Shown one piece after another: positions 20,762 through 41,680 of a stretch of DNA of 64,000 nucleotides. Origin of the DNA: Roseicyclus persicicus (lineage in GTDB: Bacteria > Pseudomonadota > Alphaproteobacteria > Rhodobacterales > Rhodobacteraceae). The stretch spans positions 310,001 through 374,000 of the forward strand of contig NZ_JAAZQQ010000002.1 of assembly GCF_012395815.1 (NCBI RefSeq). The letters run 5' to 3'. The position numbers and the translations under genes were made by a program. How positions within the stretch are numbered: the first letter of the stretch is position 1; each line of letters begins with the position of its first letter. The notes under the pieces were generated by a model, which was not told the origin of the DNA, searched no databases, and saw nothing but the letters and a program-made list of their open reading frames with translations.

Positions 20762-20813
20762 GCGGGCAGAGTTTTCCTGAAAACTCTGCCCGCGGCCAGG
20801 TCTTCTGAAAGAC
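20762..20813. repeat. Palindrome pair B downstream of the DegT gene
   Basis: A strong hairpin at 20762-20793 has arms GCGGGCAGAGTTTTC and their complement, 15 bp with a 2-base centre. It is preceded on the minus strand by a weaker GTCTT-CTGA-AAGAC hairpin at 20800-20813. Both lie just after the stop of the DegT gene (minus strand), so they may terminate or protect its mRNA. The inner GAGTTTTCCTGAAAACTC resembles the stems in arrays A, C and F. Confidence 0.7.
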
Positions 20814-22141: not shown

Positions 22142-22220
22142 CACGAAAGCTTCGTGCGGCGGGATGCGGCGGGGCGCGGAAAACTCGAGTTTTCCGCGCC
22201 GAAAAACTCGGGTTTTCGGC
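22142..22220. repeat. Palindrome array C (three palindromes)
   Basis: Between the PuuB-like gene stop and the DegT start, reading the plus strand: CACGAA-AAG-TTCGTG-like palindrome at 22142-22156; a 28-bp perfect palindrome at 22173-22200 with left arm GGCGCGGAAAACTC; and an imperfect palindrome at 22198-22220 (GCCGAAAA and complement) that shares 3 bp with its neighbour. The last two centres are 22.5 bp apart. The GGAAAAC/GTTTTCC core is shared with arrays A and F and the carD leader. Confidence 0.8.
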
Positions 22221-23655: not shown

Positions 23656-25025
23656 CACACGTTGAGGAGCAGGTGCTCCCGCTCCCAGGGGCTGATGACG
23701 TGCAGGAACTCGTTGTATTCCAGCTCCTTCACGGCGGTGTAGACGCGGCAGAATTCCTCGCCCAGCACCTGCTGGATGGTCGGGTTCGCCTCCAGCAGCC
23801 CCAGCGCGTCGCCAAGCCCGCGCGGCACGCCGCTTTCCAGCTGGTAGGCGTCGCCCGCGAAGGGCTCGGAGGGTTCGGTCTTTTCCAGGAGCCCCACCAG
23901 CCCGCATGCCAGCGACGCGGCGATGCCGAGGTAGGGGTTGCAGTCCATCCCCGGCAGCCGGTTCTCGACCCGCCGCGCGGACGGCTCGGACACCGGCACG
24001 CGCAGGCCCGTGGTGCGGTTGTCGCGGCCCCATTCCAGGTTGATCGGCGCGGCGAAGTCGGGGACGTAGCGCCGGTAGCTGTTCACGTAGGGCGCCAGCA
24101 GGGCGATCACGGCGGGCAGGTTGCGCTGCATCCCGCCGATGAAATGCATGAACTCGGGCGTTTCCGACCCGTCGGGGTTGGAAAAGATGTTCTCGCCGGT
24201 CTCGAGGCTGACCACCGAGTGGTGGATGTGCATCGCGCTGCCCGGCTCGCCCTCGATCGGCTTGGCCATGAAGGTGGCGTAGGTGTCGTGGCGCAGCGCC
24301 GCCTCGCGGATCATGCGTTTGAAGAAGAACATCTCGTCGGCGAGCTTGACCGGGTCGCCGTGGCGCAGGTTCAGCTCGATCTGCCCCGAGCCGCCTTCCT
24401 GCAGGATGCCGTCGATTTCCAGACCCATGGCCTCGGCGAAGTCGTAGATGTCGTCGATGACGCGGCCGTATTCGTCCACGGCCGACATCGAATAGGCCTG
24501 CCGCGCCGCCGCGCGCCGGCCCGAGCGGCCCATGGGCGGTTCGATCTCGCGGGCGGGGTCGGTGTTCGGGGCGACGAGGTAGAATTCCATCTCGGGCGCC
24601 ACGATCGGCTTCAGCCCGCGCGCGTTGTAGAGGCCGACCACCCGCTTGAGCACGTTGCGCGGCGCGTAGGGCACCGGGTTGCCCTTCTGGTCGTCGATGT
24701 CGTGGATCACCTGCAGCGTGGTGTCCGCGGTCCAGGGCGCGGGCGTCGCCGTCTCGTAATCCGGCGTCAGGATCATGTCCGGCTCGGTGAAGCCGTCGGC
24801 CACCTCGTCGGCCCAGTCGCCGGTGATGGTCTGGAAGAAGATCGAGTTCGGCAGGTAGAAGAACGGCTGCCGGGCGAACTTCTGGCCCGGCATGGCCTTG
24901 CCGCGGGCGATGCCCGCCAGGTCGGCGACGATGCATTCCACCTCGTCGATGGAGCGCCCGTGCAGGTAGGTCTGCGCGATGTCGGGCAGCTTCTCGATCA
25001 GGTCGTTGACGGGGCTCGAGCTCAT
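23655..25025 (-). CDS. Glutamine synthetase family ligase (gamma-glutamylamine synthetase-like, copy 1)
   Basis: 456 residues with the glutamine synthetase catalytic domain. MEFYLVAPNTDP (about 142-153) carries the metal glutamate, GSGQIELNLRHGDPV the second metal and ammonia site, and AMHIHHSVVSLETGENIF the ATP/metal His region, with NRTTGLRVP and VENRLPGMDCNPYL toward the end. This style is that of PuuA and other gamma-glutamyl-amine ligases rather than GlnA. It probably attaches glutamate to an amine for oxidation by the PuuB-like enzyme. The ATG overlaps the amidotransferase stop. Confidence 0.87.
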   Translation of the reverse strand: MSSSPVNDLIEKLPDIAQTYLHGRSIDEVECIVADLAGIARGKAMPGQKFARQPFFYLPNSIFFQTITGDWADEVADGFTEPDMILTPDYETATPAPWTADTTLQVIHDIDDQKGNPVPYAPRNVLKRVVGLYNARGLKPIVAPEMEFYLVAPNTDPAREIEPPMGRSGRRAAARQAYSMSAVDEYGRVIDDIYDFAEAMGLEIDGILQEGGSGQIELNLRHGDPVKLADEMFFFKRMIREAALRHDTYATFMAKPIEGEPGSAMHIHHSVVSLETGENIFSNPDGSETPEFMHFIGGMQRNLPAVIALLAPYVNSYRRYVPDFAAPINLEWGRDNRTTGLRVPVSEPSARRVENRLPGMDCNPYLGIAASLACGLVGLLEKTEPSEPFAGDAYQLESGVPRGLGDALGLLEANPTIQQVLGEEFCRVYTAVKELEYNEFLHVISPWEREHLLLNV

Positions 25026-25732
25026 GCGCCGGCCCTCTCTGCAAAGGGCACCCGGGTGGCGGGCTGGCCCTCCAGCACGTCGGCCAGCCAGTCGGCGATC
25101 AGGTGGCTGTCGGTGGGTGCCTCCAGCGCCTCGCGCGCGGCCTCGACCAGCGGCGCGGGCACGGCGCCCGAGCGGTGCTCGATCAGCGCCTCGACGACCG
25201 AGGCGGGAAATTCCGGGTGCGGCTGCACGGTCAGGATGCGGTCGCCATGGGCCAGCACCGCGTGGCGGGTGAACGGGTTCTCGCCCAGCACGGTCGCGCC
25301 CTCGGGCAGCTCCACCACCTGGTCCTGGTGCCAGGCGTTCAGCGCCAGCTCGCGCCCGCCGATGCTGTAGTGGCGCCGGCCGACGGCCCAGCCGCCGGAA
25401 AACTTCTCGACCCGGCCGCCGAGCGCCTGGGCGATGATCTGGTGCCCGAAGCAGATGCCGACCAGCGGCTTGCCCGCGTCGCGGATGGCGCGGATCAGCG
25501 CCTCGAGCGGCGGGATCCAGGCGTGGTCCTCGTAGGCGCCGTGGCGCGAGCCGGTGATGAGCCAGGCGTCGGCGGCATCTGGCCCCTCGGGGAACTCCAT
25601 GTCGACGACCGAATAGGTGCGCAGGGTGAAGCCGCGGTGGGCGAAGAGGCGGGCGAACAGGTCGGTATAGGTTCCGTCCCGTGCCGCGACTTGGTCGGGA
25701 ACGTGGCCGGTCTGCAGGATGCCGAGGATCAT
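25022..25732 (-). CDS. Class I glutamine amidotransferase-like hydrolase
   Basis: 236-residue triad amidotransferase domain protein. The nucleophile is Cys94 in GICFGHQI, and the His172 and Glu174 pair is in VQPHPEFP. There is no synthetase domain, so it acts alone or with a partner. In a gamma-glutamylation pathway such a protein could release glutamate from the gamma-glutamyl intermediate, the job PuuD does in E. coli. It is, however, closer in layout to GMP-synthase-type amidotransferases than to PuuD. It is co-translated with the downstream ligase by ATGA overlap. Confidence 0.83.
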   Translation of the reverse strand: MILGILQTGHVPDQVAARDGTYTDLFARLFAHRGFTLRTYSVVDMEFPEGPDAADAWLITGSRHGAYEDHAWIPPLEALIRAIRDAGKPLVGICFGHQIIAQALGGRVEKFSGGWAVGRRHYSIGGRELALNAWHQDQVVELPEGATVLGENPFTRHAVLAHGDRILTVQPHPEFPASVVEALIEHRSGAVPAPLVEAAREALEAPTDSHLIADWLADVLEGQPATRVPFAERAGA

Positions 25733-25811
25733 GGGGTACTCGTGGGCTTGGATGGCGCCAAGCTATGCCTGCCCGCGCCGGCGGGCAAGGGGGCGGGCGC
25801 GGGCCGCGGCG

Positions 25812-27149
25812 TCACACGATGTCGAGGTAGAGCTCGGTCTGCTCCTCGGGGCCGAGCCCGGCCATGTAGTGCAGCTCCTGCCGCTTGGTGGCGAGGAAGT
25901 TGGTGATCAGCTCGGGCGCGAAGATGCGCGCGATCTCGGGGCTGGTGGCAAAGGCGTCGACCGCCGCGGCCCAGCTGTCGGGCAGCTGCGGCAGCGCCTG
26001 CTGGTAGGCGTTGCCGGTGATCGGCGGCGGCGGCTCGGCGGCGTCCTCGATCCCGTTCAGCGCGGCGCCGAGGATGGCGGTGATGAGCAGGTAGGGGTTG
26101 ATGTCGCCGCCCGCGACGCGGTGCTCGATCCGCCGCGCGGCGGGGCTGCCCGAGGGGATGCGCAGCGCGGTGGTGCGGTTCTCGTAGGCCCAGGCGATGC
26201 CAGTGGGGGCGTGGGCGCCGGGGACCAGCCGGTCGTAGCTGGTGGCGTGCGGCGCCAGGATCAGCATCGAGCCCGGCATGGCGGCGAGGCAGCCGGCCAC
26301 CGCGTGGCGCAGCGCGGCCGACCCCTGCGGCGTGCCGTCGTCGAAGATGTTGCGCCCCTCCGCGTCGAGGATCGAGAAATGCGTGTGCAGCCCGTTGCCG
26401 GAATATTCCGGGTAGGGCTTGGCCATGAAGCTGGCGGCGAAGCCGTGCCGGCGCGCGAGCCCGCTGACCAGGAGCTTGAAGAACCAGGCGTCGTCCGCGG
26501 CCTTGAGCGCGTCGGACTGGTGCATCAGGTTGATCTCGAACTGCCCCGGCCCGGCCTCGGAGATGGTGGTGTCGGCGGGAATGTCCATCGCCTCGCAAGC
26601 GTCGTAGAGCGCGGTGAAGAAGGCGTCCCAGGCGTCGAGCTGGCGCAGCGCGAGGATCTCGGCCTGGTGGCGGCGCTTGCCCGAGCGCGGGCTGGGCGGC
26701 ACCCGCAGCTCCTTGCCGCGGTCGTCGATCAGGTAGAACTCCATCTCGGTCGCCACCACCGGCGTCAGGCCGCGGGCGGTGTAGCGCTCGACCACGCGGG
26801 CCAGCGCCTGGCGCGGGTCGCCGGCGAAGGGGCGGCCGTCCTCGTGGAACATCCAGATCGGCAGGAGCGCGGTGGGCGCGTCGATCCAGGGCATCGGGAC
26901 GAAGCCGCGCTCGGTCGGCTTGAGGATGCCGTCGGGGTCGCCGGCGGCGAAGACCAGCGGGCTGTCGTCGATGTCCTCGCCCCAGATGTCGAGGTTCAGC
27001 ACCGAGAAGGGAAAGCGCGTCCCCTCGGTGATCGCCTTGTCGGCGTAGCGGCGCGGGATGCGCTTGCCGCGGGGCTGGCCGTTGAGGTCGGCGGCAGCCA
27101 CGCGAATGGAGCGCACCTCGGGGTGCTCGAGAAGATAGTCGTCCGTCAT
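25812..27149 (-). CDS. Glutamine synthetase family ligase (gamma-glutamylamine synthetase-like, copy 2)
   Basis: 445-residue paralogue of the 23655-25025 ligase with the same motifs: MEFYLIDDRGKE, GPGQFEINLMHQ, LHTHFSILDAEGRNIF, NRTTALRIPSG and EHRVAGGDINPYL. The N-terminal domain (SIRVAAADLNGQPRGKRIPR) is the short beta-grasp region. Two non-identical ligases in one operon suggest two amine substrates or a heteromeric enzyme. The ATG overlaps the permease stop. There is a 79-bp gap to the amidotransferase gene. Confidence 0.87.
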   Translation of the reverse strand: MTDDYLLEHPEVRSIRVAAADLNGQPRGKRIPRRYADKAITEGTRFPFSVLNLDIWGEDIDDSPLVFAAGDPDGILKPTERGFVPMPWIDAPTALLPIWMFHEDGRPFAGDPRQALARVVERYTARGLTPVVATEMEFYLIDDRGKELRVPPSPRSGKRRHQAEILALRQLDAWDAFFTALYDACEAMDIPADTTISEAGPGQFEINLMHQSDALKAADDAWFFKLLVSGLARRHGFAASFMAKPYPEYSGNGLHTHFSILDAEGRNIFDDGTPQGSAALRHAVAGCLAAMPGSMLILAPHATSYDRLVPGAHAPTGIAWAYENRTTALRIPSGSPAARRIEHRVAGGDINPYLLITAILGAALNGIEDAAEPPPPITGNAYQQALPQLPDSWAAAVDAFATSPEIARIFAPELITNFLATKRQELHYMAGLGPEEQTELYLDIV

Positions 27150-27985
27150 CTTATGACCTGGGGCCTGATGCGAAGGCGCTGCCGGCGCTCGGCGGGCAGG
27201 TGCCGGTTGAGGCGCGTGTTGATCGCGCCGAAAACCCAGATGATGACCAGCGTCAGGGCGACGAAGTAGAGCGCCACGATCGGGTAGGGGATGAAAGGGT
27301 TGAAGGTGCGGTCGGCGAAGTAGTTGGCGTAGTAGAGCGCGTCGCCCTGCTGCCGGAAGGCGGGGAAGGACGAGAAGAACACCAGCGCGGTGGACTGGAA
27401 CAGGAAGATCGCCTCGTTGGTGTAGGCGGGCCAGGCCAGCCGCATGGTGGTGGGGAACACGACGCGGCGGAACTTGGCCCAGCCCGACAGGCCGTAGGCG
27501 TCGGCGGCCTCGAGGTCGCCCCGGGGCACCGAGCGCAGCGCGCCGTAGAAGATCTCGGCGGCGTAGGCCGAGGTGTTGAGGAACAGCACGATCAGCGCGC
27601 CGAGCCAGGCGCGCGAGAACCAGCGCGTCTCGGCCGCGATCTCGATGCCGAGGAGCGTGAACTCGATGCCGACGCGGGGCAGCATCACGAAGGCCTCGTA
27701 GGCCATGAAGAACTGGATGAAGAGCGGCGAGCCGCGGAACACGAAGATGAACCATTCGGCGGGCTTGCGCACCAGCCAGCGGCGCGACGCCTTGGCCACC
27801 GCGAGGGCCACGGCGAAGAAGAAGCCGAAGGCGAGCGCGAGTACACCGAAATAGACGTTCCAGATCATGCCCGAGCCGATCAGCACGATCTGTTCGCACA
27901 GCGTGATCTCGGATTGCGGCAGGAGGCGCTCGCCGATCCCGAGCGAGCGCAGGGCATAGGCCTGTATCGCCTCGGCGCAGGTCAT
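27146..27985 (-). CDS. ABC transporter permease, polar amino acid/amine type (HisM-like)
   Basis: 279-residue inner-membrane permease with five or six hydrophobic segments. The EAA loop EAADAYGLSGWAKFRRVVFP that contacts the ATPase is clear. The start at 27985 has CCGGAGG upstream with good spacing; the frame stays open through the palindrome array to 28063, but that extension is only palindrome sequence and was rejected. It forms an importer with the 28113 permease, the 29100 binding protein and the 29860 ATPase. It is placed directly before a gamma-glutamyl ligase, so the substrate is probably an amine or amino acid. Confidence 0.88.
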   Translation of the reverse strand: MTCAEAIQAYALRSLGIGERLLPQSEITLCEQIVLIGSGMIWNVYFGVLALAFGFFFAVALAVAKASRRWLVRKPAEWFIFVFRGSPLFIQFFMAYEAFVMLPRVGIEFTLLGIEIAAETRWFSRAWLGALIVLFLNTSAYAAEIFYGALRSVPRGDLEAADAYGLSGWAKFRRVVFPTTMRLAWPAYTNEAIFLFQSTALVFFSSFPAFRQQGDALYYANYFADRTFNPFIPYPIVALYFVALTLVIIWVFGAINTRLNRHLPAERRQRLRIRPQVIR

Positions 27986-28003
27986 CGCGCGGCCTCCGGG
28001 TCG

Positions 28004-28094
28004 GGCAAGACCCTTGCAAGGGTCTTGCCACGCCCTTGCAAGGGCGTTGCCAGAGCCTTGCAAGGCTCTGGCCGGTTTCTTGCAAGAAACCGGC
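28004..28094. repeat. Palindrome array D: four CTTGCAAG-centred palindromes at exact 22-bp spacing
   Basis: Between two permease genes of the same operon lie four perfect palindromes. P1 is 28004-28029 (left arm GGCAAGACCCTTG), P2 is 28030-28047 (ACGCCCTTG), P3 is 28049-28072 (GCCAGAGCCTTG) and P4 is 28071-28094 (GCCGGTTTCTTG). All share the central CTTGCAAG; the outer arms differ. The centres are at 28016.5, 28038.5, 28060.5 and 28082.5. The array begins 18 bp after one stop and ends 18 bp before the next gene. Almost the same array recurs at 39129-39217. Confidence 0.95.
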
Positions 28095-28112
28095 GCGGCG
28101 GGGTCCGGTGAG

Positions 28113-28994
28113 TCATGCCGCGGCCTTTCTGAGCTCTTCGCCCGCCGCGGTGGCCTGCCCGTGCGACAGGCGCCGGGTGAGCCGGCCGAGCACGATCTCG
28201 GAGACCCGCGTGAAGCAGAGGTAGAAGACGAGGAGGCCGAGGAAGTACCAGAAGCGCCAGTCGGGGTGCGGGTACTGGTAGGCCGAGGTCCGGCTGCCGC
28301 CCAGTTCGCGGGCCCAGTAGACGATGTCCTCGATGCCGAGCAGGAACAGCAGCGGCGTGGCCTTGATCAGGATCATCCAGATGTTCGACAGGCCGGGCAG
28401 GGCGTAGATCCACATCTGCGGGACCAGCACGCGCCAGAACACCTGCCGGCGCGACATGCCGTAGGCCTCTGCGGTCTCCAGCTGCGGCCGGGGCACCGCC
28501 CGCATCGCGCCGAACAGGACGTTGCCGCAGAACGCGCCGAAGACGATGGCGTAGGTGAACACCGCCAGCGCGAAACCGTAGGCCTCGTGCACCCATTGCG
28601 GCGCGTTGCCCGCGGGCGTGCGCGCCTCGGGGCAGACGAGGAAGTTCGCGCCCTGCCGGATCGGGTCCGTCCAGTCGGGGCAGGAGATGCGGTGGCGGGC
28701 GTACTCGATGGCCTGGTCGAGCACGAGCACGAAGAACAGGAAGAACACGATGTCCGGCACGCCGCGGACCATGGCGGTGTAGAGCTTGCCGGCCCAGGCC
28801 AGGGGCGGCACGTGGCTGCGCGACGCGGCGGCGGCGGCGAAGCCGAAGGCGAGCGAGACCGGGGCGGTGACGGCGAGCAGCGCGAAGACCACCAGGAAGG
28901 ACTGGTAGAACAGCATGTGCGCGCCGTTGGTCAGGTAGCAGCCGAACCAGCGGGCCGTGTCGAGGGTCGAGGGGTCGGTGCAGTACTCGAACAT
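28113..28994 (-). CDS. ABC transporter permease, polar amino acid/amine type (HisQ-like)
   Basis: 293-residue permease, partner of the 27146 gene. The EAA loop ETAEAYGMSRRQVFWRVLVP is visible, and MVRGVPDIVFFLFFVLVLDQ is typical of the His/Glu/Gln permease subfamily. It carries an insert with two Cys (SCPDWTDPIRQGANFLVCPE) between membrane segments, probably periplasmic. It is followed on the minus strand by array D, then the second permease. The gene order binding protein, permease, permease, ligase is consistent with a solute uptake and use operon. Confidence 0.88.
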   Translation of the reverse strand: MFEYCTDPSTLDTARWFGCYLTNGAHMLFYQSFLVVFALLAVTAPVSLAFGFAAAAASRSHVPPLAWAGKLYTAMVRGVPDIVFFLFFVLVLDQAIEYARHRISCPDWTDPIRQGANFLVCPEARTPAGNAPQWVHEAYGFALAVFTYAIVFGAFCGNVLFGAMRAVPRPQLETAEAYGMSRRQVFWRVLVPQMWIYALPGLSNIWMILIKATPLLFLLGIEDIVYWARELGGSRTSAYQYPHPDWRFWYFLGLLVFYLCFTRVSEIVLGRLTRRLSHGQATAAGEELRKAAA

Positions 28995-29017
28995 GCGGGG
29001 GCCTTGCGGCGGCGGTC

Positions 29018-29044
29018 TTGCGTATTTGGGGAAAGATGAAGCGG
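29018..29044. repeat. Dispersed intergenic repeat, variant R4
   Basis: TTGCGTATTTGGGGAAAGAT plus GAAGCGG, 27 bp, in the 105-bp gap between the binding protein and the first permease. It is identical over 27 bp to 36732-36758. On the opposite strand it reads CATCTTTCCCCAAATACGCA, a variant of the CATCTTTGCTTC/AAATACTCC element. Confidence 0.8.
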
Positions 29045-29099
29045 CAGGAGGGAAGGGCGGGGGCGGGCGCCGGGCCCGCCCCCGTCCGGTCGGGTCAGG

Positions 29100-29819
29100 T
29101 CACCAGGTGGCGGCCTCGGGGCCGAACCACTCGAGGATCAGCGCGTTCAGGGTGCCGTCCTCCTTCATCGCGGTGATCGCCGCGTTGAAGGCGGCCAGCC
29201 GTTCGTCGCCCTCGCGCAGCGCCATGCCGACGCCGCCGCCCAGTTGAACGGGCTCGCCCACGATCATCAGGTCGGCGTCCTCGTCGGCGATTGGCAGCAG
29301 GTAGTCGCCGTCGGCGAAGACCGCGTCGGCCTCGCCGTTGCGCACCGCGGCCACGGTCTCGTCCGGGGTGGCGAACTCGATCAGGGTCGCGCCCGAGGCG
29401 GCGATGTAGCCGGCCTGGATGGTGTTGGTCTGGGCCGCGATCACGCCGCCCGCCAGGTCGGCATCCTCGCTCAGCGCCATGAACAGCGACGAGGCCGGCG
29501 GGATGTAGGGCTGGGTGAAGTCGACGACTTCCTCGCGCTCCTCGGTGATCGACATGCCGGCGATGATGGTGTCGTAGTTGCCCGAGGTCAGGTTCGGGAT
29601 GATCGAATCCCAGTCGTTGGTGACCCATTCGCAGGTCAGCTCGGCGCGGGCGCAGAGCTCGTCGCCGAGCGCGCGCTCGAAGCCGTCGACCTCGCCGTTG
29701 TCATTGATGAAGTTGTACGGAGGGTAGGCGCCCTCCGTGCCCATGCGGACGACATCCTGCGCGGCGGCGGCGCCGGCGGAGATCGCCAGCAGGCTGGCAG
29801 TCAGGATCAGGTATTTCAT
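29100..29819 (-). CDS. Periplasmic amino acid/amine-binding protein of ABC transporter
   Basis: 239 residues. The signal peptide MKYLILTASLLAISAGAAAA is cleaved before QDVV. The mature part is a family 3 binding fold: RMGTEGAYPPYNFINDNGEV, GFERALGDELC, then IAGMSITEEREEVVDFTQPY, the standard signature. One Cys pair (LCARAELTCEW) is present. It captures the substrate for the downstream permeases; ligand residues cannot fix whether it is a polyamine, basic amino acid or other. It is transcribed between the ATPase and permease genes. Confidence 0.92.
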   Translation of the reverse strand: MKYLILTASLLAISAGAAAAQDVVRMGTEGAYPPYNFINDNGEVDGFERALGDELCARAELTCEWVTNDWDSIIPNLTSGNYDTIIAGMSITEEREEVVDFTQPYIPPASSLFMALSEDADLAGGVIAAQTNTIQAGYIAASGATLIEFATPDETVAAVRNGEADAVFADGDYLLPIADEDADLMIVGEPVQLGGGVGMALREGDERLAAFNAAITAMKEDGTLNALILEWFGPEAATW

Positions 29820-29859
29820 CGGTATCTCCCTGGAGTTTTCGGGTGGTCTTGCCTCAGTC

Positions 29860-30636
29860 TCACGCCGCCTGGCTGTGGCTGAGGAACTGTTGCAGGCGCT
29901 CGGAGCTGGGCGCGCCGAACAGCGCGTCGGGCGGGCCCTCCTCCTCGATCTTCCCCTGGTGGAGGAAGATGGTGTGGGTCGACAGGTCGCGCGCCATGCG
30001 CATGTCGTGGGTGACGAGGATCATGGTGCGCCCCTCCTCGGCCAGCGCCCGGATCACGCGCACCACCTCCTGTTCCAGCTCGGGGTCGAGCGCGGAGGTG
30101 GGTTCGTCGAACAGCAGCGCCCGCGGCTCCATGCACAGCGCGCGGGCGATCGCGGCGCGCTGCTGCTGGCCGCCCGACAGCTGCGCCGGCCAGGCATCGC
30201 ATTTCTCGCCGATGCCGACCTTGTCGAGATAGGCGCGGGCGCGGTCCTCGACCTCGGCGCGGTCCTGGCCTAGCACGGTGACGGGGGCCTCCATGACGTT
30301 CTGCAGGATCGTCATGTGGGACCAGAGGTTGAACTGCTGGAACACCATCGACAGGTTGGTGCGGATGCGGCGCACCTGCTCGGCGTCGGCGGGGCGCCGG
30401 TGGTGGCCCGTGCCCTTCCAGTGGACCGGTTCGCCCTCGAAGATGATGTCGCCCTTCTGGCTGTCCTCGAGCAGGTTGGCGCAGCGCAGCAGCGTGGACT
30501 TGCCCGACCCAGACGAGCCGATCAGCGACACCACGTCGCCCGCCCGCGCGGCCAGGTCGACCCCGCGCAGCACCTCCAGCGTGCCGAAACTCTTGTGCAG
30601 GCCGGTGATCTGGATGACCGGCGGTGTGGCAGACAT
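29860..30636 (-). CDS. ABC transporter ATPase, polar amino acid/amine type (HisP-like)
   Basis: 258 residues. Walker A is GSSGSGKST near 40-48, the Q-loop MVFQQFNLWSHMT, the signature LSGGQQQRAAIARAL, Walker B ALLFDEPTSALDPE and the switch His in THDMRMA. GHHRRPADAEQVRRIRTNL is the longer insert found in HisP/ArtP-like proteins. It energises the importer whose other parts follow. As the first gene of the cluster it is probably preceded by the operon promoter. Confidence 0.93.
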   Translation of the reverse strand: MSATPPVIQITGLHKSFGTLEVLRGVDLAARAGDVVSLIGSSGSGKSTLLRCANLLEDSQKGDIIFEGEPVHWKGTGHHRRPADAEQVRRIRTNLSMVFQQFNLWSHMTILQNVMEAPVTVLGQDRAEVEDRARAYLDKVGIGEKCDAWPAQLSGGQQQRAAIARALCMEPRALLFDEPTSALDPELEQEVVRVIRALAEEGRTMILVTHDMRMARDLSTHTIFLHQGKIEEEGPPDALFGAPSSERLQQFLSHSQAA

Positions 30637-30665
30637 GCGGGCCCCGTCCCTGTCTTGGTCTGCGG

Positions 30666-30694
30666 ATTTGTGCCGATGGAACGCGCAAATGCAA
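30666..30694 (-). promoter_or_regulatory. Candidate promoter of the amine-uptake operon
   Basis: Reading the minus strand, TTGCAT (30689-30694) and ACAAAT (30666-30671) are 17 bp apart, about 30 bp before the ATPase start codon. The boxes are only moderate. A small palindrome AATCGC-GG-GCGATT lies further up at 30741-30754, next to the PhnD-like gene stop. Confidence 0.3.
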
Positions 30695-30756
30695 CGGTCT
30701 TGTGCAGGCTGACCTTGGGGAAACGCGCCTGCCGAGGCCGAATCGCGGGCGATTGG

Positions 30757-31482
30757 TCAGGGATTGGGCGGGATCGGGACGGCCCGGTAGGCGTCGGCGC
30801 CGATCTCGACCACGCCGCGCAGCCCCAGCGCGGACAGGGTGGCGGGCGGCAGGGCGGCCAGCGCCTCGGCCAGCGCGGCGCGGATCGGGCCGGGGTCGCG
30901 GGTGGCCGCCGTGACGTAGGGCAGGGCCGGGGTCGGCGCCGTCCGGTCGATCTCGAGGCCCGCGTCGGCGCCGTCGAAGCGCAGGAGCAGGCGCCAGGTC
31001 TGGGCGTCGATGGCGGCCAGGTCGGCGGCGCCCGTCGCCACCGCCCGGGCCGAGGCGGCGTGGCTTCCGGTCAGCGTCACCGGCCCGGGCGCAATGCCCC
31101 GCCCGCCCATCCAGGCGTGCAGCGCCGCCCAGCCCGACTGGCTGAGCGGGTCGTTGACGGCCAGGCGCGGGCGCGGCGGCAGGCGGCCGTCCCGGGCCAG
31201 CACGACGGAATTGTAGTGGCCGGCCGGGCAGCCGGGCAGCGCGAAGTCCGGCGTCGCCACGAGGCTCACGGTCCCGTGCAGCCGGGCGCGGAAGGGCAGG
31301 CCGCAGGTCTGCGCGAAGACGAGGCCGGGGTCGGTCCAGACCGCCCACGGATCGCGGTCGCGGGTCAACGCCTCGGGCGCGTCGATGCCCCGGCGGCGGA
31401 GCGCGTCGCGGATGGCGGCCCAGAGCGCGTCGGTCTCGGCGCGCAACTCGGGGCGGTCGTACATCGGCAGGGCGGCGATCAT
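30757..31482 (-). CDS. PhnD/TauA-like solute-binding-fold protein without signal peptide
   Basis: 241 residues resembling phosphonate/phosphite-type binding proteins: ALPMYDRPELRAETDALWAA, then FAQTCGLPFRARLHGTVSLV, GHYNSVVLARDG, RLAVNDPLSQSGWAALHAWM, and VTLTGSHAASARAVATGAAD. These mark ligand-binding loops of the PhnD family. No signal peptide or lipobox is visible, so it may work in the cytoplasm as a sensor or be mis-started. No phosphonate genes are nearby. It is followed by the TerB-like gene upstream on the same strand, 10 bp apart. Confidence 0.75.
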   Translation of the reverse strand: MIAALPMYDRPELRAETDALWAAIRDALRRRGIDAPEALTRDRDPWAVWTDPGLVFAQTCGLPFRARLHGTVSLVATPDFALPGCPAGHYNSVVLARDGRLPPRPRLAVNDPLSQSGWAALHAWMGGRGIAPGPVTLTGSHAASARAVATGAADLAAIDAQTWRLLLRFDGADAGLEIDRTAPTPALPYVTAATRDPGPIRAALAEALAALPPATLSALGLRGVVEIGADAYRAVPIPPNP

Positions 31483-31492
31483 GGCCGCGCGC

Positions 31493-31942
31493 TCAGTCGC
31501 CGTAATGGGCGTCCTCGACCCGTTTCCGGGCGAGGTTCGAGTCGCGGTCGTTCACGCCCAGCATGGGCGCGATCATCCGCAGGAGCGAATCCTCCTCGCT
31601 GTCGCGCGCGCCGTCGGCCAGCACGATGAACCACAGCGCCTCGATGACATGGACGCGGTCCTCGTAAGGGACGCTGTCCTTGATCGCGCGGGTGAAGCGG
31701 ACGGTGTCGGGCGCCTCGGCCTCGAGCCGTTCGGATTCGGCCCGCAGCGCGGCGGCCTCGGCGTCGGACAGGCCGTAGCGGTGGGCAAGCACGCGGTCGA
31801 TCTGGGCCTGCTCGATGCCGGCATAATCGCCGTCCGAGCGGGCGATGCGGACCAGCAGCGCGCCGAGCGCCAGCCGGGCGTCGTCGTAGGGCAGGGGTTC
31901 GGGGTCGGGCGCCGTGAGGCGGCGGAGGAGGTCGCTGAACAT
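31493..31942 (-). CDS. TerB-like (tellurite resistance/COG4103) protein
   Basis: 149 residues, nearly all helical, with the TerB-domain pattern ALGALLVRIARSDGDYAGIE, then QIDRVLAHRYGLSDAEA and a matching second half DSVPYEDRVHVIEALWFIVL, ADGARDSEEDSLLRMIAPML. The acidic loops (DGDYAGIE, DGARDSEED) are the metal-binding type of TerB. The function is unknown in single-gene relatives, and no ter operon is present. The start MFSDLLRRL was chosen where GGAGG-like bases precede it. Confidence 0.78.
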   Translation of the reverse strand: MFSDLLRRLTAPDPEPLPYDDARLALGALLVRIARSDGDYAGIEQAQIDRVLAHRYGLSDAEAAALRAESERLEAEAPDTVRFTRAIKDSVPYEDRVHVIEALWFIVLADGARDSEEDSLLRMIAPMLGVNDRDSNLARKRVEDAHYGD

Positions 31943-31986
31943 GGGGTCCGATATAGGATGGCCGGGGCGGGGTGGAAAGCGCGGGC

Positions 31987-32853
31987 TCAGGGGATGCGGA
32001 TCGTCCCCTCGGCGATCTTCACCGCCGACCCCGCGACGCGGATCGCGGCGATCGCGCCGGCGTCGACGTCGACGGTCAGGCGCAGGTCCGACGGGCGGCC
32101 CATCTCGACGCCCTGTCGCAGCCGCAGCGTGGTGGTGCCGCCGGGCAGCGCCCCGTTGGCCAGCAGCTGCCCCGCGAGGATCGCGGTGGCCGATCCTGTG
32201 GCCGGGTCCTCGGGGATGCCGGCGGTGGGTGAGAACATGCGCGACCGGATGCCTTCGGGCGTGGCGGTGTAGAGATAGGCGCTGTCGACCCGCGCCGCGG
32301 CCATCAGTTCGGACCAGACGGGCTCGATGGGGCGGGCGGCGGCCAGCGTGTCCAGGTCGGTGACGGGGACGTAGAGGAAGGCCGGGCCGCCCTGCCAGAC
32401 GCCGGGGTCGTGCGGGCCGATGCGGGCCGGGGTCAGGTCGAGCGCGGCGGCGATCAGCGCGTGGGGCGGTACGGGGGCGTGGCGGACGGGAAGCCTCGGG
32501 GCGGTGAACTCGGCCAGCGTCGCGCCGCCGTCGCGGGTGATGGTGACGGGCACGAGGCCCGCGACCTCCTCCAGCGTGATCTCGCTGGCCGTGTCGCCGG
32601 CGAGGTGGAGGGCGCAGCCGATGGTCGGGTGGCCGGCGAAGGGGATTTCCGCCGTGGGAAAGAAGATGCGCACCTTGGCGGTGTGGGCCGGGTCGTCCGG
32701 GGGCTGGACGAAGATCGTTTCCGACAGGTTGAACTGTCGGGCCAGGGTCTGCATCTGCGCCGTCGTCAGGCCGCCCGCGCCCTCGACGATGGCGAGCGGG
32801 TTGCCGGTGAAGGGCGTCGTGGTGAACACGTCGTAGATGTGGAAGCGAAGCAT
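31987..32853 (-). CDS. PhzF-family isomerase/epimerase
   Basis: 288-residue diaminopimelate-epimerase-fold protein of the PhzF family. Glu45 (FNLSETIF) matches the catalytic glutamate of PhzF, with His75 in PFAGHPTIG and Asp in [10 protein letters not shown]. The N-terminal start [19 protein letters not shown] is typical. The family includes phenazine enzymes, but single genes like this usually have unknown substrates. No phenazine genes are seen. The ATG at 32853 begins a gene divergent from the ivd operon, with palindrome array F in the shared gap. Confidence 0.88.
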
Positions 32854-32916
32854 GGCGCGGTCCCTGCCGTGGGTCGGGGCCGAGGGGACCACCGCGGGGC
32901 GGCGGTGGCAAGGGGG

Positions 32917-32983
32917 CGTTTTCCTGCGGGAAAACGATGGCGCGAAGCCGCAGCTTCGCGGGACGGAAAACTGCGGTTTTCCG
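32917..32983. repeat. Palindrome array F (three hairpins) in a divergent gap
   Basis: P1 is 32917-32936 (CGTTTTCC and complement), P2 32941-32960 (CGCGAAGC and complement) and P3 32964-32983 (CGGAAAAC and complement), each with a 4-base centre. The centres lie 24 and 23 bp apart. The array lies between PhzF (minus) and ivd (plus), 20 bp upstream of the ivd -35 box, so it is upstream of both genes and cannot be a plain terminator for either. Confidence 0.85.
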
Positions 32984-33002
32984 CAACCGGCCCGCGAATC
33001 CT

Positions 33003-33031
33003 TTGACAGCCCGGCGCCCGCGCGGTATGAA
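33003..33031 (+). promoter_or_regulatory. Sigma-70 promoter of the leucine-degradation operon
   Basis: TTGACA (33003-33008) and TATGAA (33026-33031) are separated by 17 bp, a near-consensus promoter and the best in the window. Transcription should begin near 33038, about 30 bp before the ivd ATG. The -10 box is overlapped by the palindromic operator at 33030-33049. Confidence 0.78.
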
Positions 33032-33049
33032 TTGAACAAGCGTTCAATT
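33030..33049. promoter_or_regulatory. TetR-type palindromic operator over the ivd promoter
   Basis: AATTGAAC-AAGC-GTTCAATT: perfect 8-bp arms around a 4-bp spacer. It covers the -10 box and the likely start point, so a bound protein would block transcription. The shape fits TetR-family regulators of acyl-CoA and branched-chain amino acid catabolism. No such regulator gene is adjacent in the window. Confidence 0.75.
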
Positions 33050-33067
33050 AACGGGAGGGTTGGCGCC

Positions 33068-34231
33068 ATGTTTCTCGGTTCGATGACCTTCGACCTGGGC
33101 GACGAGGTCAATGCGCTGCGCGAGATGGTGCACCGCTGGGCGCAGGAGCGGGTGAAGCCGCTGGCCGCCGAGACCGACCAGACCAACCAGTTCCCCAACC
33201 AGCTGTGGCGCGAGATGGGGGAGCTCGGGCTTCTCGGCATCACGGTGGATGAAGAGTATGGCGGGGCCGGCATGGGCTACCTCGCCCATATCGTCGCGGT
33301 GGAGGAAATCAGCCGCTGCTCGGCCTCGATCGGGCTCAGCTACGGGGCGCACTCCAACCTCTGCGTGAACCAGATCAAGCTGAACGGCACGGCGGAGCAG
33401 AAGGCGAAATACCTGCCCGGGCTGATCTCGGGCGAGCATGTCGGCGCGCTGGCCATGTCCGAGGCGGGCGCGGGGTCGGACGTGGTGGGCATGAAGCTGC
33501 GGGCCGAGAAACGGAACGACCGCTACGTCCTGAACGGCACGAAATACTGGATCACCAACGGGCCGGACGCCGACACGCTGGTCGTCTATGCCAAGACCGA
33601 CCCCGAGGCGGGATCGAAGGGGATCACCGCCTTCCTGATCGAGAAGACGATGAAGGGCTTCTCCACCTCGCCGCATTTCGACAAGCTCGGGATGCGCGGG
33701 TCGAACACGGCGGAACTGATCTTCGACGACGTCGAGGTGCCGTTCGAGAACGTGCTGGGCGAGGAGGGCAAGGGCGTGCGCGTGCTGATGTCGGGCCTCG
33801 ACTACGAGCGCGTGGTGCTGTCGGGGGTCAACATCGGGATCATGGCGGGCTGCCTCGACGAGGTGATGCCCTACATGCGCGACCGCCACCAGTTCGGCCA
33901 GCCGATCGGGAATTTCCAGCTGATGCAGGGCAAGATCGCGGACATGTACACCGCGATGAACTCGGCCCGCGCCTATGCCTACGAGGTCGCCAAGGCCTGC
34001 GACCGGGGCGAGGTGACGCGGGCGGACGCGGCGGCCTGCGTGCTCTACGCCTCCGAGGAGGGGATGAAGGTCGCCCACCAGGCGGTGCAGGCGATGGGCG
34101 GCGCGGGGTTCCTGGCCGACGCGCCGGTGGCCCGCATGTTCCGCGACGCCAAGCTGATGGAGATCGGCGCCGGCACGTCGGAGATCCGGCGGATGCTGGT
34201 CGGGCGCGAACTGATGGCGGCGATGGGGTGA
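33068..34231 (+). CDS. ivd: Isovaleryl-CoA dehydrogenase
   Basis: FAD acyl-CoA dehydrogenase that turns isovaleryl-CoA into 3-methylcrotonyl-CoA, the first committed step of leucine breakdown after transamination and decarboxylation. 387 residues. Glu247 in [12 protein letters not shown] is at the position of the catalytic base special to isovaleryl-CoA dehydrogenases (other family members place it later). [36 protein letters not shown] and the C-terminal [17 protein letters not shown] are present. First gene of the operon; GGGAGGG precedes the ATG at 33068. Confidence 0.95.
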
Positions 34232-34237
34232 GGGGCG

Positions 34238-34522
34238 ATGCGGCGCGGGCTGATCCTGCCGCTTGCGGGGCTGGTGACCGCCGCGGGGGCCTTCGGGCTC
34301 TGGCAGGGGCTGCGGGCCGTGCCGCCGACCGAGACCGAGATCATCCTGGCCGCGGCGGCCCGCTACGTCGCCGAGACCGGCGGGGCCGCGACCGACTGCG
34401 CGGGGCGGCCCGCGGCGGTCGAGGGGGTGCGGCTGGTGGTGACCTGCGGCGCGGACTGGGCGCTGGCGGTGGACCTGTGGGGGCGGCCGGTGGCGCTGCC
34501 CGGCGCGGGGCCGCGGACATGA
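34238..34522 (+). CDS. Unknown small exported/anchored protein
   Basis: 94 residues with an N-terminal hydrophobic segment (MRRGLILPLAGLVTAAGAFGLW) that may be a signal peptide or anchor. The mature part has two Cys (ATDCAGRP and VVTCGADW) that could pair in the periplasm. No family recognised. It begins 6 bp after ivd, and its stop overlaps the next ATG (ATGA). It is probably a passenger of the leucine operon of unknown role. Confidence 0.65.
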   Translation: MRRGLILPLAGLVTAAGAFGLWQGLRAVPPTETEIILAAAARYVAETGGAATDCAGRPAAVEGVRLVVTCGADWALAVDLWGRPVALPGAGPRT

Positions 34523-35103
34523 GGGCGGCGGCGCTCATCGCGCTTGCGCTCTTCGCCGCGCCGGCGGGGGCCGGGGCGCTGGAGGGGTTCGACACCTGCT
34601 TCGCCCGCGCCATCGCGCATTTCGAGATGGAGGCGGCGCGGCTCGGCACCGCGGGCTTGGTCGAGGATTTCGAGCTGGTCACGCGCGACCGGGTGCACCA
34701 CTGCGGCTCGCTCGCCATCGTCGCCTGCGACCGGGGCCCGGAGCCGCAGGCCTGCCAGCGCCGGCTCGCCGCCGCGCAGCTGGCGCTGCGCGACCGGGTG
34801 CTGGCCGGGCTGCCCGCGCCGGAGGACGTGACCGCGGCCGCGCCCTTCGGCGCCGCGCTCTACCCCCGGCTCTGGGCGGTGGCGCGGGGCGCCTCGGCCG
34901 GGGACGACTGCGCGGGGGCCGAGGACCCGGTGGCGGCCTGGTGCGAGACGCACGAGGCGCGGCTGCAGCTGACCGAGGCGGTGGCCGCCTGGCAGGTCGC
35001 GCGGCTGATCGGGATGGCCGCGCCGGCGGTGGCGCTGGGCTCGGTCGACAGCGCGATGCCCTTTGAGCCGGTGCCCCGGCCGGGGCGGGAGGAGGACGAA
35101 TGA
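34519..35103 (+). CDS. Unknown cysteine-rich exported protein
   Basis: 194 residues. Residues 1-20 ([20 protein letters not shown]) form a signal peptide. The mature part has seven Cys ([44 protein letters not shown]), suggesting disulfides in the periplasm, and is otherwise helical. No family recognised. It lies between and overlaps both the 34238 gene and mccB by ATGA, so it is translated with the leucine genes. Why a secreted protein should belong there is not clear. Confidence 0.7.
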
Positions 35104-36710
35104 GGCTGACATCGCAGCTGGTGGCCGGGTCGGAGGAGGCGCGCGCCAACCGCGCCGCGCATCTCGCGGCGCTGGCCGAGATCGAGGCGGCCGCGGCGCT
35201 GGCCGCAGCGGGGGGCGGCGACAAGGCGCGCGAGCGGCATGTGAGCCGCGGCAAGATGTTGCCGCGGGACCGGGTGGCGGGGCTGCTCGACCCCGGCTCG
35301 CCCTTCCTCGAGGTCGGCGCGACGGCCGGGCACGGCCTGTACGACGGCGCGGCGCCCTGCGGCGGCGTGATCGCGGGGGTGGGGCTCGTCGAAGGCCGGC
35401 AGGTGATGGTCGTCTGCAACGACGCGACGGTGAAGGGCGGTACCTACTACCCGGTGACGGTCAAGAAGCACCTGCGCGCCCAGGAGATCGCCGAGGAGTG
35501 CCGGCTGCCCTGCGTCTACCTGGTCGACTCGGGCGGCGCCAACCTGCCGAACCAGGACGAGGTGTTCCCCGACCGCGACCATTTCGGGCGCATCTTCTAC
35601 AACCAGGCGCGGATGAGCGCGGCCGGCATCGCGCAGATCGCGGTGGTGATGGGCTCCTGCACCGCCGGGGGCGCCTATGTGCCGGCCATGTCGGACGTGA
35701 CCATCATCGTGAAGGAGCAGGGGACGATCTTCCTCGCCGGGCCGCCGCTGGTGAAGGCGGCGACGGGCGAGGTGGTGAGCGCCGAGGAGCTGGGCGGCGG
35801 CGACGTGCACACGCGGCTGTCGGGCGTGGCGGATTACCTGGCCGAGGACGATGGGCATGCGCTGGCCCTGGCGCGGCGGGCGGTGCGGTCGCTGGGGGCG
35901 GGGGCCGGGCTGAAGCCCGGCCTACCGGGTTTGGGTGGGCGTGCGCCGGCCTACGACCCCGACGAGCTGTTCGACGTGGTGCCGGCGCGGCTGACGACGC
36001 CCTACGACATCCGCGAGGTGATCGCGCGGATCGTGGACGACAGCTGGTTCGACGAGTTCAAGCCGCGCTTCGGCGAGACCATCGTGACGGGCTTCGCGCA
36101 GGTCATGGGGATGGACGTGGGGATCGTGGCGAACAACGGCGTCCTGTTCTCCGAGTCGGCGCAGAAGGCCGCGCATTTCGTGCAGCTGTGTTCGCAGCGC
36201 CGGATCCCGTTGGTGTTCCTGCAGAACATCACCGGCTTCATGGTGGGCCGGAAATACGAGAACGAGGGCATCGCCCGGCACGGCGCCAAGATGGTGACGG
36301 CGGTGGCGACGACCGCGGTGCCGAAGATCACCATGCTGGTCGGCGGCAGCTTCGGCGCGGGGAACTACGGGATGGCGGGCCGGGCCTACAGCCCGCGGTT
36401 CCTGTGGACCTGGCCCAATTCGCGGATCTCCGTCATGGGCGGCGCGCAGGCGGCGGGCGTGCTGGCCACCGTCAGGCGCGAGGCGATGGAGCGGGCCGGG
36501 CAGGACTGGTCGGCCGAGGCCGAGGCCGAGTTCAAGCGGCCCACGATCGAGATGTTCGAGCGGCAGTCGCACCCGCTCTATGCCTCGGCGCGGCTCTGGG
36601 ACGACGGGGTGGTGGACCCGCGCAAGTCGCGCGAGGTGCTGGCCCTGTCGCTGGCCGCCGCGCTGAACGCGCCGATCGACGAGACGCGGTTCGGCCTGTT
36701 CCGGATGTAG
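35100..36710 (+). CDS. mccB: Methylcrotonoyl-CoA carboxylase, carboxyltransferase (beta) subunit
   Basis: Transfers CO2 from biotin to 3-methylcrotonyl-CoA, giving 3-methylglutaconyl-CoA. 536 residues, the MCC-beta length, with the crotonase-like halves: [20 protein letters not shown] and [20 protein letters not shown] in the N-half, then [40 protein letters not shown] and [20 protein letters not shown]. These are typical of MCC rather than propionyl-CoA carboxylase. It overlaps the upstream exported protein by ATGA. The biotin subunit mccA follows after an ASCH gene. Confidence 0.95.
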
Positions 36711-36730
36711 GCGCGGGGCGGCGGGCCGGG

Positions 36731-36758
36731 TTTGCGTATTTGGGGAAAGATGAAGCGG
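36731..36758. repeat. Dispersed intergenic repeat, variant R5
   Basis: TTTGCGTATTTGGGGAAAGA plus TGAAGCGG. 36732-36758 is identical over 27 bp to 29018-29044. Here it ends at, and supplies an in-frame ATG for, the start of the ASCH gene. It lies 20 bp after the mccB stop. Confidence 0.8.
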
Positions 36759-37172
36759 ATGGGTCAGAGTCTGGATGAGCTGCGGGCGCGCTACCCCGGC
36801 GCGGTCGCCTACCGCTTCGGGGCGAGCCCCGAGGGGTCGGCGGCGCTGCTGGCGCTTGTGCGGGCGGGCAGGAAACGGGCGACCTGCCTCGCCGAGGCGG
36901 AGGTCGAGGCGGGCGAGGCGCCGCCCGTGGTCGGGCGCTGCGACATCGCGGTGGATTTCGAGGGCGTGCCGCAGCTGGTGACGCGGACGCTGGAGCTGCG
37001 CCGGGTGCGGTTCTGCGACATGACCGAGGAGATGGCGCTGGTCGAGGGCGAGGACGAGGACCTTGCCGGCTGGCGCGAGGGTCACGAGCGGTATTACCGG
37101 CGCGCGGGGATCTTCCATCCCGAGATGGGGCTGATCTGGGAGCGCTTCGAGCTGGTGGAGGACCTGGCGTGA
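36759..37172 (+). CDS. ASCH-domain protein
   Basis: 137 residues from ATG 36759 (140 from ATG 36750, which lies inside repeat R5). The ASCH beta-barrel resembles PUA domains and is thought to bind RNA or modified nucleotides. Visible are AYRFGASPEGSAALLALVRA, GRKRATCLAEAEVEAGEAPP, CDIAVDFEGVPQLVTRTLEL and EGHERYYRRAGIFHPEMGLI. It sits between the two carboxylase subunit genes, and its stop is close to the mccA start. The link to leucine breakdown is unexplained. Confidence 0.82.
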   Translation: MGQSLDELRARYPGAVAYRFGASPEGSAALLALVRAGRKRATCLAEAEVEAGEAPPVVGRCDIAVDFEGVPQLVTRTLELRRVRFCDMTEEMALVEGEDEDLAGWREGHERYYRRAGIFHPEMGLIWERFELVEDLA

Positions 37173-37195
37173 CCGGCCGGGCGGGGGAGGGGCGC

Positions 37196-39124: not shown

Positions 39125-39128
39125 GCGG

Positions 39129-39217
39129 GCAAGACCCTTGCAAGGGTCTTGCGACGCCCTTGCAAGGGCGTGGGCAGAGCCTTGCAAGGCTCTGGCCGGT
39201 TTCTTGCAAGAAACCGG
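39129..39217. repeat. Palindrome array E: second copy of the four CTTGCAAG-centred palindromes
   Basis: P1 is 39129-39152 (left arm GCAAGACCCTTG), P2 39154-39171 (ACGCCCTTG), P3 39175-39194 (CAGAGCCTTG) and P4 39196-39217 (CCGGTTTCTTG), each a perfect palindrome centred on CTTGCAAG. The centres are at 39140.5, 39162.5, 39184.5 and 39206.5, exactly 22 bp apart. It matches array D at 28004-28094 in order, stems and spacing with only a few base changes, mostly between palindromes. It lies 4 bp after mccA and ends 10 bp before the GST start codon. Confidence 0.95.
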
Positions 39218-39227
39218 TGCGGCGGCC

Positions 39228-39890
39228 ATGATCCGGCTGCACCACGTCCCCTGGGGCCGCTCCTTCCGCGTGCTGTGGCTGCTGCAGGAAATGGGGATCA
39301 CCCCCGACGAGATCGTCCGCTACCGGATCGGCGACCGGGCGATGCGCGGGGCGGGGCTGCTGGGCGTCTCGCCCGCCGGCCGGATCCCGGCGCTGGAGAT
39401 CGACGGCATCACCATCTTCGAAAGCGCCGCGATCCTGCAGTATCTCTGCGAGAGCCGCCCGGAGCCCGGCTTCGGCCGCCCGCCCGGCCACCCCGAGCGG
39501 GTGCGCTACCTGGAACTGATGGGCTTTGCCGAGACGCAGGCCTCGCTGGTGGAGCAGCTGAACCTCAACCACCTGTTCCTGCGCCCGCCCGCGAAGCCGT
39601 CGCCCACCGTGGTCAAGCTCAACACGCTGCGCCTGGCCGACACGCTGCGCGCGCTCGAGGGCATGGTGGAGGGGGAGTACCTCCTGCCGTCGGGGTTCTC
39701 GGCGGCGGACGCGATGCTGGGCTTCAACCTCTTCGCCGCGCCCTTCTACGTGAGGATGGACCCGTTCCCCCGTTTGCGCGACTACTGGGGGCGGATCTCG
39801 GCGCGGCCGGGGTTCCGGGCGGCCGCGGCGATCGAGGGGCCGCAGGATTTCTATGCGCGGGACTTCTACGAGGTGCCGGGCGATGGGTGA
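39228..39890 (+). CDS. Glutathione S-transferase family protein
   Basis: 220 residues. The thioredoxin-fold N-domain shows HHVPWGRSFRVLWLLQEMG and the cis-Pro/Glu-Ser glutathione motif (RIPALEIDGITIFESAAILQ). The all-helical C-domain follows from about residue 90. The ATG at 39228 is right after array E, and no good ribosome-binding sequence is seen there; AAGAA is inside the last palindrome, so array folding could affect translation. Family members conjugate glutathione or act as peroxidases; the role in leucine use is unknown. Confidence 0.85.
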   Translation: MIRLHHVPWGRSFRVLWLLQEMGITPDEIVRYRIGDRAMRGAGLLGVSPAGRIPALEIDGITIFESAAILQYLCESRPEPGFGRPPGHPERVRYLELMGFAETQASLVEQLNLNHLFLRPPAKPSPTVVKLNTLRLADTLRALEGMVEGEYLLPSGFSAADAMLGFNLFAAPFYVRMDPFPRLRDYWGRISARPGFRAAAAIEGPQDFYARDFYEVPGDG

Positions 39891-39929
39891 CAGGGCCGCC
39901 GCGACGCGGTCACGGGGAGGGATCGGCAG

Positions 39930-41556: not shown

Positions 41557-41680
41557 GGGTGCCGCGGCGTGGCCGTCGCGGGATGCAGGGATTGCGCCGG
41601 CTTCGCCGTCGCCGGGGCGCGCGCCGCTGGCGCGGCGCGGGCGCGAGGTTCGGCCCGCTGTGCGGGGTGGGGATGTGGTT

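Follow-up and report, generated by a model that had tools for sequence, protein, structure and literature searches.

Tandem palindromes between two permease genes of Roseicyclus persicicus belong to a dispersed family of hairpin arrays with a probable role at gene 3' ends

What four perfect palindromes with a common centre might do between two permease genes of an ABC transporter operon is the question raised by positions 28004-28094 of the window, that is, the whole stretch of 64,000 nucleotides of Roseicyclus persicicus DNA that was analysed (source genome G000; 3.71 Mb). The palindromes measure 26, 18, 24 and 24 bp. Around a shared CTTGCAAG they carry unlike arms, and each centre lies exactly 22 bp from the next; the constant centre, variable arms and exact spacing described in the initial annotation are thus confirmed for this array:

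27146-27985, minus strand: ABC transporter permease (BPD_transp_1) downstream of the array, with GGAGG 7 nt before its ATG
28004-28029, no strand assigned: hairpin unit 1, GGCAAGACC-CTTGCAAG-GGTCTTGCC
28030-28047, no strand assigned: hairpin unit 2, ACGCC-CTTGCAAG-GGCGT
28049-28072, no strand assigned: hairpin unit 3, GCCAGAGC-CTTGCAAG-GCTCTGGC
28071-28094, no strand assigned: hairpin unit 4, GCCGGTTT-CTTGCAAG-AAACCGGC
28113-28994, minus strand: ABC transporter permease (BPD_transp_1) upstream of the array

Upstream of the permeases, the operon has genes for a family-3 solute-binding protein and an ABC ATPase, and downstream follow glutamine-synthetase-like and glutamine-amidotransferase-like genes. 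CTTGCAAG occurs eight times in the window against 0.54 expected (eight were reached in 0 of 100 shuffles), at 28013, 28035, 28057 and 28079 and again at 39137, 39159, 39181 and 39203, with spacings of 22, 22 and 22 in each set. The prediction of four adjacent RNA hairpins between the permease genes holds in folding calculations, in which the array at 28004 forms them on either strand (z of -6.5 and -7.1); separate hairpins are found for 28000-28099 on both strands and for 39125-39224 on the plus strand (z of -5.8 to -7.1), and likewise when the window arrays are folded as DNA single strands. A folded unit has a stem of ca. 7-11 bp and a four-base loop and occupies ca. 22 bp, and the hairpins within both window CTTGCAAG arrays lie -2 to 3 bases apart. 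A CRISPR array is ruled out, since the units abut, the arms vary and there are no spacers, and a described Rfam family was dropped with 0 matches at gathering score in the window.

The array at 28004 belongs to a family of ca. 100-bp elements scattered through the genome, most of which consist of three to five hairpins placed back to back. Genome-wide, CTTGCAAG is present at 117 sites, compared to 9 for a reversed-pattern control. The initial annotation had proposed a plot of the distances between centres and had named rare, single or non-periodic sites as grounds for abandoning the idea of a regular array; what emerged instead were 49 pairs at exactly 22 bp across the whole genome, compared to 0 for the reversed control, and a distance of 22 bp in 63 of the 88 neighbour distances within the 30 arrays fetched from this genome, which holds at least that many. 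The remaining distances are 20 (1), 21 (9), 23 (12), 24 (1), 42 (1) and 69 bp (1), with 86 of the 88 falling within 20-24 bp; 22 bp is thus a strong mode but no fixed rule. Six of the fetched arrays have three units, 20 have four and 4 have five, and their most frequent unit type is the 18-mer of unit 3 (28049-28072) with 15 copies. The search for array regions relied on exact CTTGCAAG pairs and on resemblance to locus L046 or the window arrays, so that arrays with other cores are under-counted; of this genome's 117 CTTGCAAG sites, 108 lie in the fetched regions, and two of these are singles without a palindrome (L033, L042).

Beyond this genome, exact CTTGCAAG pairs are found in 4 of 13 genus genomes (49, 20, 21 and 17, own included), with G306 having one array that was picked up by similarity, and in 7 of 295 genomes of the family, own included. 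A covariance model of array triples (R1; E of 0.001 or better) matched 51 of the 295 family genomes, own included, and five in a class sample of 385 genomes that contains some of the family, namely this genome, one family member and three others; the latter three (E of 9e-5 to 4e-4) were discarded by eye as not being tandem hairpins. Copy numbers from R1 are floors because at most 17 (family) or 13 (class sample) candidates were scored per genome. With a looser pattern, among the matches listed (at least 111 genome and 22 viral stretches), 19 of 133 passed an arm filter that required half-arms of at least 7 in at least two units, and 18 of these, among the matches listed, came from Rhodobacterales, Rhodobacteraceae or Roseicyclus and one from a Bacteroidaceae assembly. 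In the latter, which comes from an unrelated phylum and has many loose-pattern matches, three TTGCAA units spaced by 22 bp have arms that pair in part (L158:1780-1860). Viral carriers were rejected, as 22 viral stretches fit the loose triple pattern and 0 passed the arm filter. A search of open-access papers gave, among the matches listed, no paper on this repeat; Rhodobacter does not occur in one survey of bacterial stem-loops (PMC2267715) or in the accessible part of another (PMC1590033), and neither Rhodobacter nor Roseobacter occurs in the accessible part of a 2026 survey of inverted repeats (PMC13155455).

The relatives differ in the core. At 19 inspected loci (18 from other genera and one from this genome), tandem hairpins have centres mostly 22-24 bp apart around TTGCAA, TTCGAA, TTGGAA, TTCCAA, TTATAA or GTGCAC. 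The TTGGAA and TTCCAA cores, found in family relatives, are non-palindromic, which fits a four-base loop TNNA but not a binding site with dyad symmetry. Another hairpin family follows the reverse design, with fixed arms GGAAAAC/GTTTTCC and a variable loop, and is present in all 13 genus genomes at 1-55 copies (reversed control 0 in each). Seven tandem groups were found in 400 kb of G298, five of the GGAAAAC kind and two with core TTCGTACGAA. These two (L313:17150-17206 and L318:11111-11166) represent a third type of tandem hairpin in a genome without TTGCAA pairs.

It is the pairing of the stems and not their letters that is conserved. Among 316 tandem TTGCAA sites in five genomes, collected from the fetched arrays as sites 18-27 bp from another and irrespective of their arms, 306 have six intact arm pairs, nine have one mismatch and one has two, and in this genome all 116 are perfect while comprising 52 different 18-mers. 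A covariation alignment of 37 of the 52 listed array triples comprises 888 pair cells, of which 869 are paired and 19 unpaired; 280 are changed on both sides relative to the commonest pair, and just 2 show a one-sided change with a standard pair kept. None of 500 shuffles reached the observed values for paired cells, both-sided cells or covariation score, and a single one reached the observed number of pairs with a both-sided change, though pair types are as numerous in the shuffles (270/500). When the partners are slid by one base, paired cells fall to 47-52%. The comparison of arms between copies that had been suggested at the outset thus found arms that vary mainly by paired changes on both sides around a fixed core.

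Arrays are kept at the same loci in sister species, where both-sided arm changes (to another Watson-Crick pair) outnumber one-sided ones by 39:1 between G000 and G295, 31:3 between G000 and G300 and 29:0 between G000 and G303. The ratio is 9:5 for G295-G300, 9:3 for G300-G303 and 1:1 for G300-G306, and in the closest pair, G295-G303, it is 0:4; one-sided states exist but, given these close and distant pairs, seem not to last. In the distant pairs, the linker, two positions next to each stem, is mostly changed (G000-G295: 15 the same, 27 changed on one side, 26 on both). Changed units differ in a single pair in 9 of 11 cases for G295-G300 and 8 of 19 for G000-G295, and the both-sided changes are transitions in 9/9 (G295-G300), 8/9 (G300-G303) and 26/39 cases (G000-G295). 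These change counts omit 17 orthologous array pairs with unequal unit number and, like the 320-unit table and the G-U table, use units with at least 8 of 9 pairs only, a filter that was not applied to the 316 sites.

With respect to genes, the 30 arrays of this genome lie in 18 convergent, 12 co-directional and 0 divergent gaps of a codon-score gene model, while the background, taken from the window alone, is 7 convergent and 7 divergent among 72 neighbour gene pairs. Convergent gaps are strongly over-represented (binomial 1.6e-11), and the evidence for a lack of divergent ones is weak (0.046). At 44 of 48 facing stop codons, the distance from stop to array is 15 bp or less, and it is 4-54 bp at all 48; together with the 18 convergent arrays, this suggests a general role at gene 3' ends. 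The array at 28004, with a stop codon 21 bp away, is one of the four exceptions. Its setting between two permease genes, which was central to the initial annotation, is real, but an operon is not where the family is typically found. Applied to four relatives, the gene model left four arrays unplaced and called two (L239 and L286, both at one orthologous locus) divergent, while the orthologues of these two (L266, L272) came out as convergent.

Two more hairpin arrays of the window, neither mentioned in the initial annotation, stand close behind stop codons:

39129-39217, no strand assigned: second TTGCAA array, four units with centres 22 bp apart, 96% identical to the array at 28004 over 100 bp
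16034-16101, no strand assigned: three-hairpin array of the GGAAAAC-N4-GTTTTCC type, filling the gap between convergent genes at 4 bp and 1 bp from their stops

The array at 39129 begins 4 bp past the stop of the gene at 37169-39124, with the next start codon 10 bp further on, and its orientation relative to the neighbouring genes is opposite to that of the array at 28004. This locus has an array in our genome and in G295, G300 and G303; in eight others with both flanks, the genes abut or overlap, with gaps of at most 10 bp. Over 39129-39228, little space is left for a usual ribosome-binding site before the start of the next gene. Elsewhere in the window, three short tandem hairpins with four-base loops (32917-32983) sit in a gap that the gene model calls divergent and are an exception to the 3'-end rule, and single long perfect hairpins with stems of 15 and 14 bp (20762-20793 and 22173-22200) lie 27 and 46 bp downstream of minus-strand genes.

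How the copy at 28004 came to its place can be read from its relatives. The permease genes overlap by four bases (ATGA) in all 11 relatives with both flanks placed and are 127 bp apart here, and by this comparison the array is a recent 131-bp insertion between them. An imperfect direct repeat, AGGCCGCGGCATGA and AGGCCGCGCGATGA (12 of 14 identical), surrounds the inserted stretch:

27982-27995, minus strand: copy 1 of the 14-bp direct repeat, containing the start codon of the downstream permease
28113-28126, minus strand: copy 2 of the 14-bp direct repeat, containing the stop codon of the upstream permease

Both codons survive because of this flanking repeat, which resembles a target-site duplication, though selection would also require keeping both. 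Across 60 flanks, the sequence next to the 30 arrays is only G+C-rich, with a G followed by C or G, and no longer end is shared. As judged from coordinates and flank matches, G295, G300 and G303 also have an array in this operon; it follows the first glutamine-synthetase-like gene and thus lies one gene further downstream.

Inspection of other junctions by eye indicates that the arrays occupy places that sisters fill with other hairpins or leave empty. The L046 junction has an array in this genome and three sisters, two tandem GGAAAAC hairpins instead in G299, G302 and G306, one hairpin in G296, one weaker hairpin in G297 and hairpin-less gaps of 21 and 13 bp in G298 and G305, while no hairpin was recognised by eye in G304 and no match was found in G301. 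At the L048 junction, where this genome has an array, an ordinary terminator with A-run, GC-stem and T-run is found in G305 and two GGAAAAC hairpins in G296, and G297, G300 and G303 have gaps of 178-382 bp without an array. L055 and L056 have orthologous arrays in some sisters and just 17-59 bp in others. With several relatives having only about 11-23 bp without a hairpin at orthologous junctions, the array is not needed there.

The reading that we favour, with reasonable though far from full confidence, is that the arrays would be dispersed two-way 3'-end hairpin clusters, acting as terminator and/or exonuclease block; inside the operon, the copy at 28004 would be a REP-like step in expression. 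Several observations suggest that the arrays act at the 3' ends of messages: they are placed after stop codons, they show no strand preference, their stems covary, and at one junction a relative has an ordinary terminator in their stead. Transcribed from either strand, an array would fold behind the last ribosome and could thus serve as a two-way 3'-end element: a hairpin cluster without U-tract might help to stop RNA polymerase, and/or the array might block 3'-to-5' exonucleases after Rho termination, and we infer the role at the 3' end as either of the two. The REP element of the histidine operon sits between genes of a transporter operon and alters expression, and by analogy the array at 28004 would uncouple the two permeases, with partial read-through, a changed permease ratio and probably more accumulation of the upstream than of the downstream part of the message; an effect on relative permease expression, as proposed initially, is plausible.

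A canonical Rho-independent terminator does not describe the two window arrays, which have no sense-strand U-tract directly after the stem: a simple scan of 24000-43000 found no sense-strand U-tract terminator at either window array, and its one site within them is unit 3 (28049-28072) on the plus strand, antisense to the permease operon. The arrangement by which hairpin-cluster terminators are recognised, at least two hairpins less than 15 bases apart and no more than 80 bases past a stop codon, is present. According to the accessible part of Gupta and Pal 2021 (PMC8355165), such clusters were matched to RNA-seq ends in 13 other genomes and poly-U is not necessary, and bacterial stem-loops in the accessible part of one survey (PMC1590033) favour convergent gaps and the first 50 bp past stop codons. 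Against the 3'-end reading, the end of the array at 39129 just 10 bp before the next start is an odd place for a strong terminator, and close species show one-sided changes that are as common as both-sided ones or, in G295-G303, commoner. The missing sense-strand U-tract, the orthologous junctions without a hairpin and the two arrays called divergent in relatives also speak against it.

The rarity of G-U pairs counts against it as well if Bacillus cereus terminators are the measure. On the sense strand of co-directional arrays, 750 arm pairs include 2 G-U, 1 A-C and 2 other mismatches, and all 1,908 arm pairs have 10 mismatches, 5 of them G-T or A-C. In predicted Bacillus cereus terminators, as far as the accessible part of that study goes, 4.02% of ancestral stem pairs are G-U, the most frequent intermediate in paired switches (PMC5381666). 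The difference between 2 of 750 and 4.02% is significant (binomial 2.3e-11), with the units counted being those with at least 8 of 9 pairs, a filter that removes few. This scarcity hints at a constraint on both strands or on DNA and would be explained by use of both strands everywhere or by arm-to-arm copying at the DNA level. Because it comes with many paired changes, it makes the arrays a clean case for asking whether palindrome perfection stems from both-strand selection or from templated copying.

Among the alternatives, a purely selfish dispersed repeat of REP/MITE kind, tolerated after stop codons and with hairpins that serve its own mobility and not the host, is unlikely in our view, although near-identical copies at distant sites, the lineage-specific insertion with its 14-bp imperfect direct repeat and the restriction of exact pairs to 4 of 13 genus genomes are what it would lead one to expect. 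Mobilisation by a RAYT was dropped: at E of 0.001 or better, this Y1 transposase (PF01797) was found in 0 of 13 genus genomes and in 5 of 14 control genomes, and GTAG/GTGG lies within 8 nt of the array at 1 of 60 flanks (30 arrays of this genome). Loci that are shared across species while their arms change in step would also be unexpected for dead selfish copies. Bolder, and decidedly unlikely, is a picture of mobile, self-perfecting two-way 3'-end modules that would spread to gene ends as intact units and in which arm-to-arm DNA copying would keep the stems perfect, with loop words that differ by lineage (TTGCAA, TTCGAA, TTGGAA, or GGAAAAC-N4-GTTTTCC); if true, the stem sequence would drift freely and its symmetry would not decay.

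That a mutational process suffices, with or without selection, in which a strand folding back on itself while being replicated would let one arm serve as template for the other (quasi-palindrome correction), so that a change in one arm would soon be present in both, seems very unlikely to us. It would account for the few intermediates (10 mismatches in 1,908 arm pairs), for the lack of G-U tolerance that sets the arrays apart from predicted Bacillus cereus terminators in the accessible part of PMC5381666 (2 in 750) and for relatives that are non-palindromic at the loop, the part that could not be templated. However, mismatches are too few for comparing their types, use of both RNA strands would equally exclude G-U, the paired changes are mainly transitions as in RNA helices, and the placement after stop codons would be left unexplained. 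Finally, it is highly improbable that a dimeric protein (nucleoid protein, gyrase-type BIME function or regulator) reads the CTTGCAAG dyad every two turns on one helix face, since exact palindromes, a modal spacing of 22 bp or ca. two turns and a core that is constant in this genome are met by TTGGAA, TTCCAA or TTATAA cores in some family relatives (not all of them palindromic, which is why we set this reading low), by symmetric arms that such a site does not require, by spacings that are also 21, 23 and 24 bp and by a placement that tracks stop codons and not promoters. The initial suggestion of a dedicated protein that binds four identical sites along one helix face is thus not supported, as a reader of CTTGCAAG would not demand complementary arms and the relatives have TTGGAA or TTCCAA cores.

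To the best of our knowledge, how messages end without U-tracts in GC-rich alphaproteobacteria is poorly mapped, and the empty-to-filled sites in sister species provide natural before-and-after pairs for the effects of hairpin clusters on transcription, stability and operon balance. Set against known systems, each as described in the accessible part of the paper cited, the arrays share features with several and differ from each. REP/BIME elements with their RAYT (PMC2817692) are likewise species-specific, extragenic palindromic clusters with many copies and complementary changes, and abundant clustered extragenic palindromes are indeed found here (49 exact pairs, 30 arrays). The present arrays differ from them by the absence of RAYT in all 13 genus genomes, by the lack of a GTAG/GTGG mark and by palindromes that are perfect instead of imperfect, so that their units have no orientation. 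The uptake-signal terminators of Neisseria and Pasteurellaceae (PMC1852404) also place one short repeated sequence in terminator hairpins genome-wide, but there the stem is the conserved word, whereas here the stem varies, the loop region is conserved and there are far fewer copies. Intrinsic terminators that serve convergent genes in both directions (PMC5381666) resemble our arrays in convergent placement and paired switches in the stems; unlike them, the arrays have no A/U tracts, usually consist of three to five tandem stems and show ca. 0.3% G-U compared to ca. 4%. With hairpin-cluster intrinsic terminators (PMC8355165), they share hairpins less than 15 bases apart that lie close past the stop codon and for which poly-U is not necessary. 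What sets the arrays described here apart from those clusters is that their units form a single repeat family, with perfect stems, a core that is fixed and a size that is nearly so, which is dispersed through the genome and newly inserted at some of its sites.
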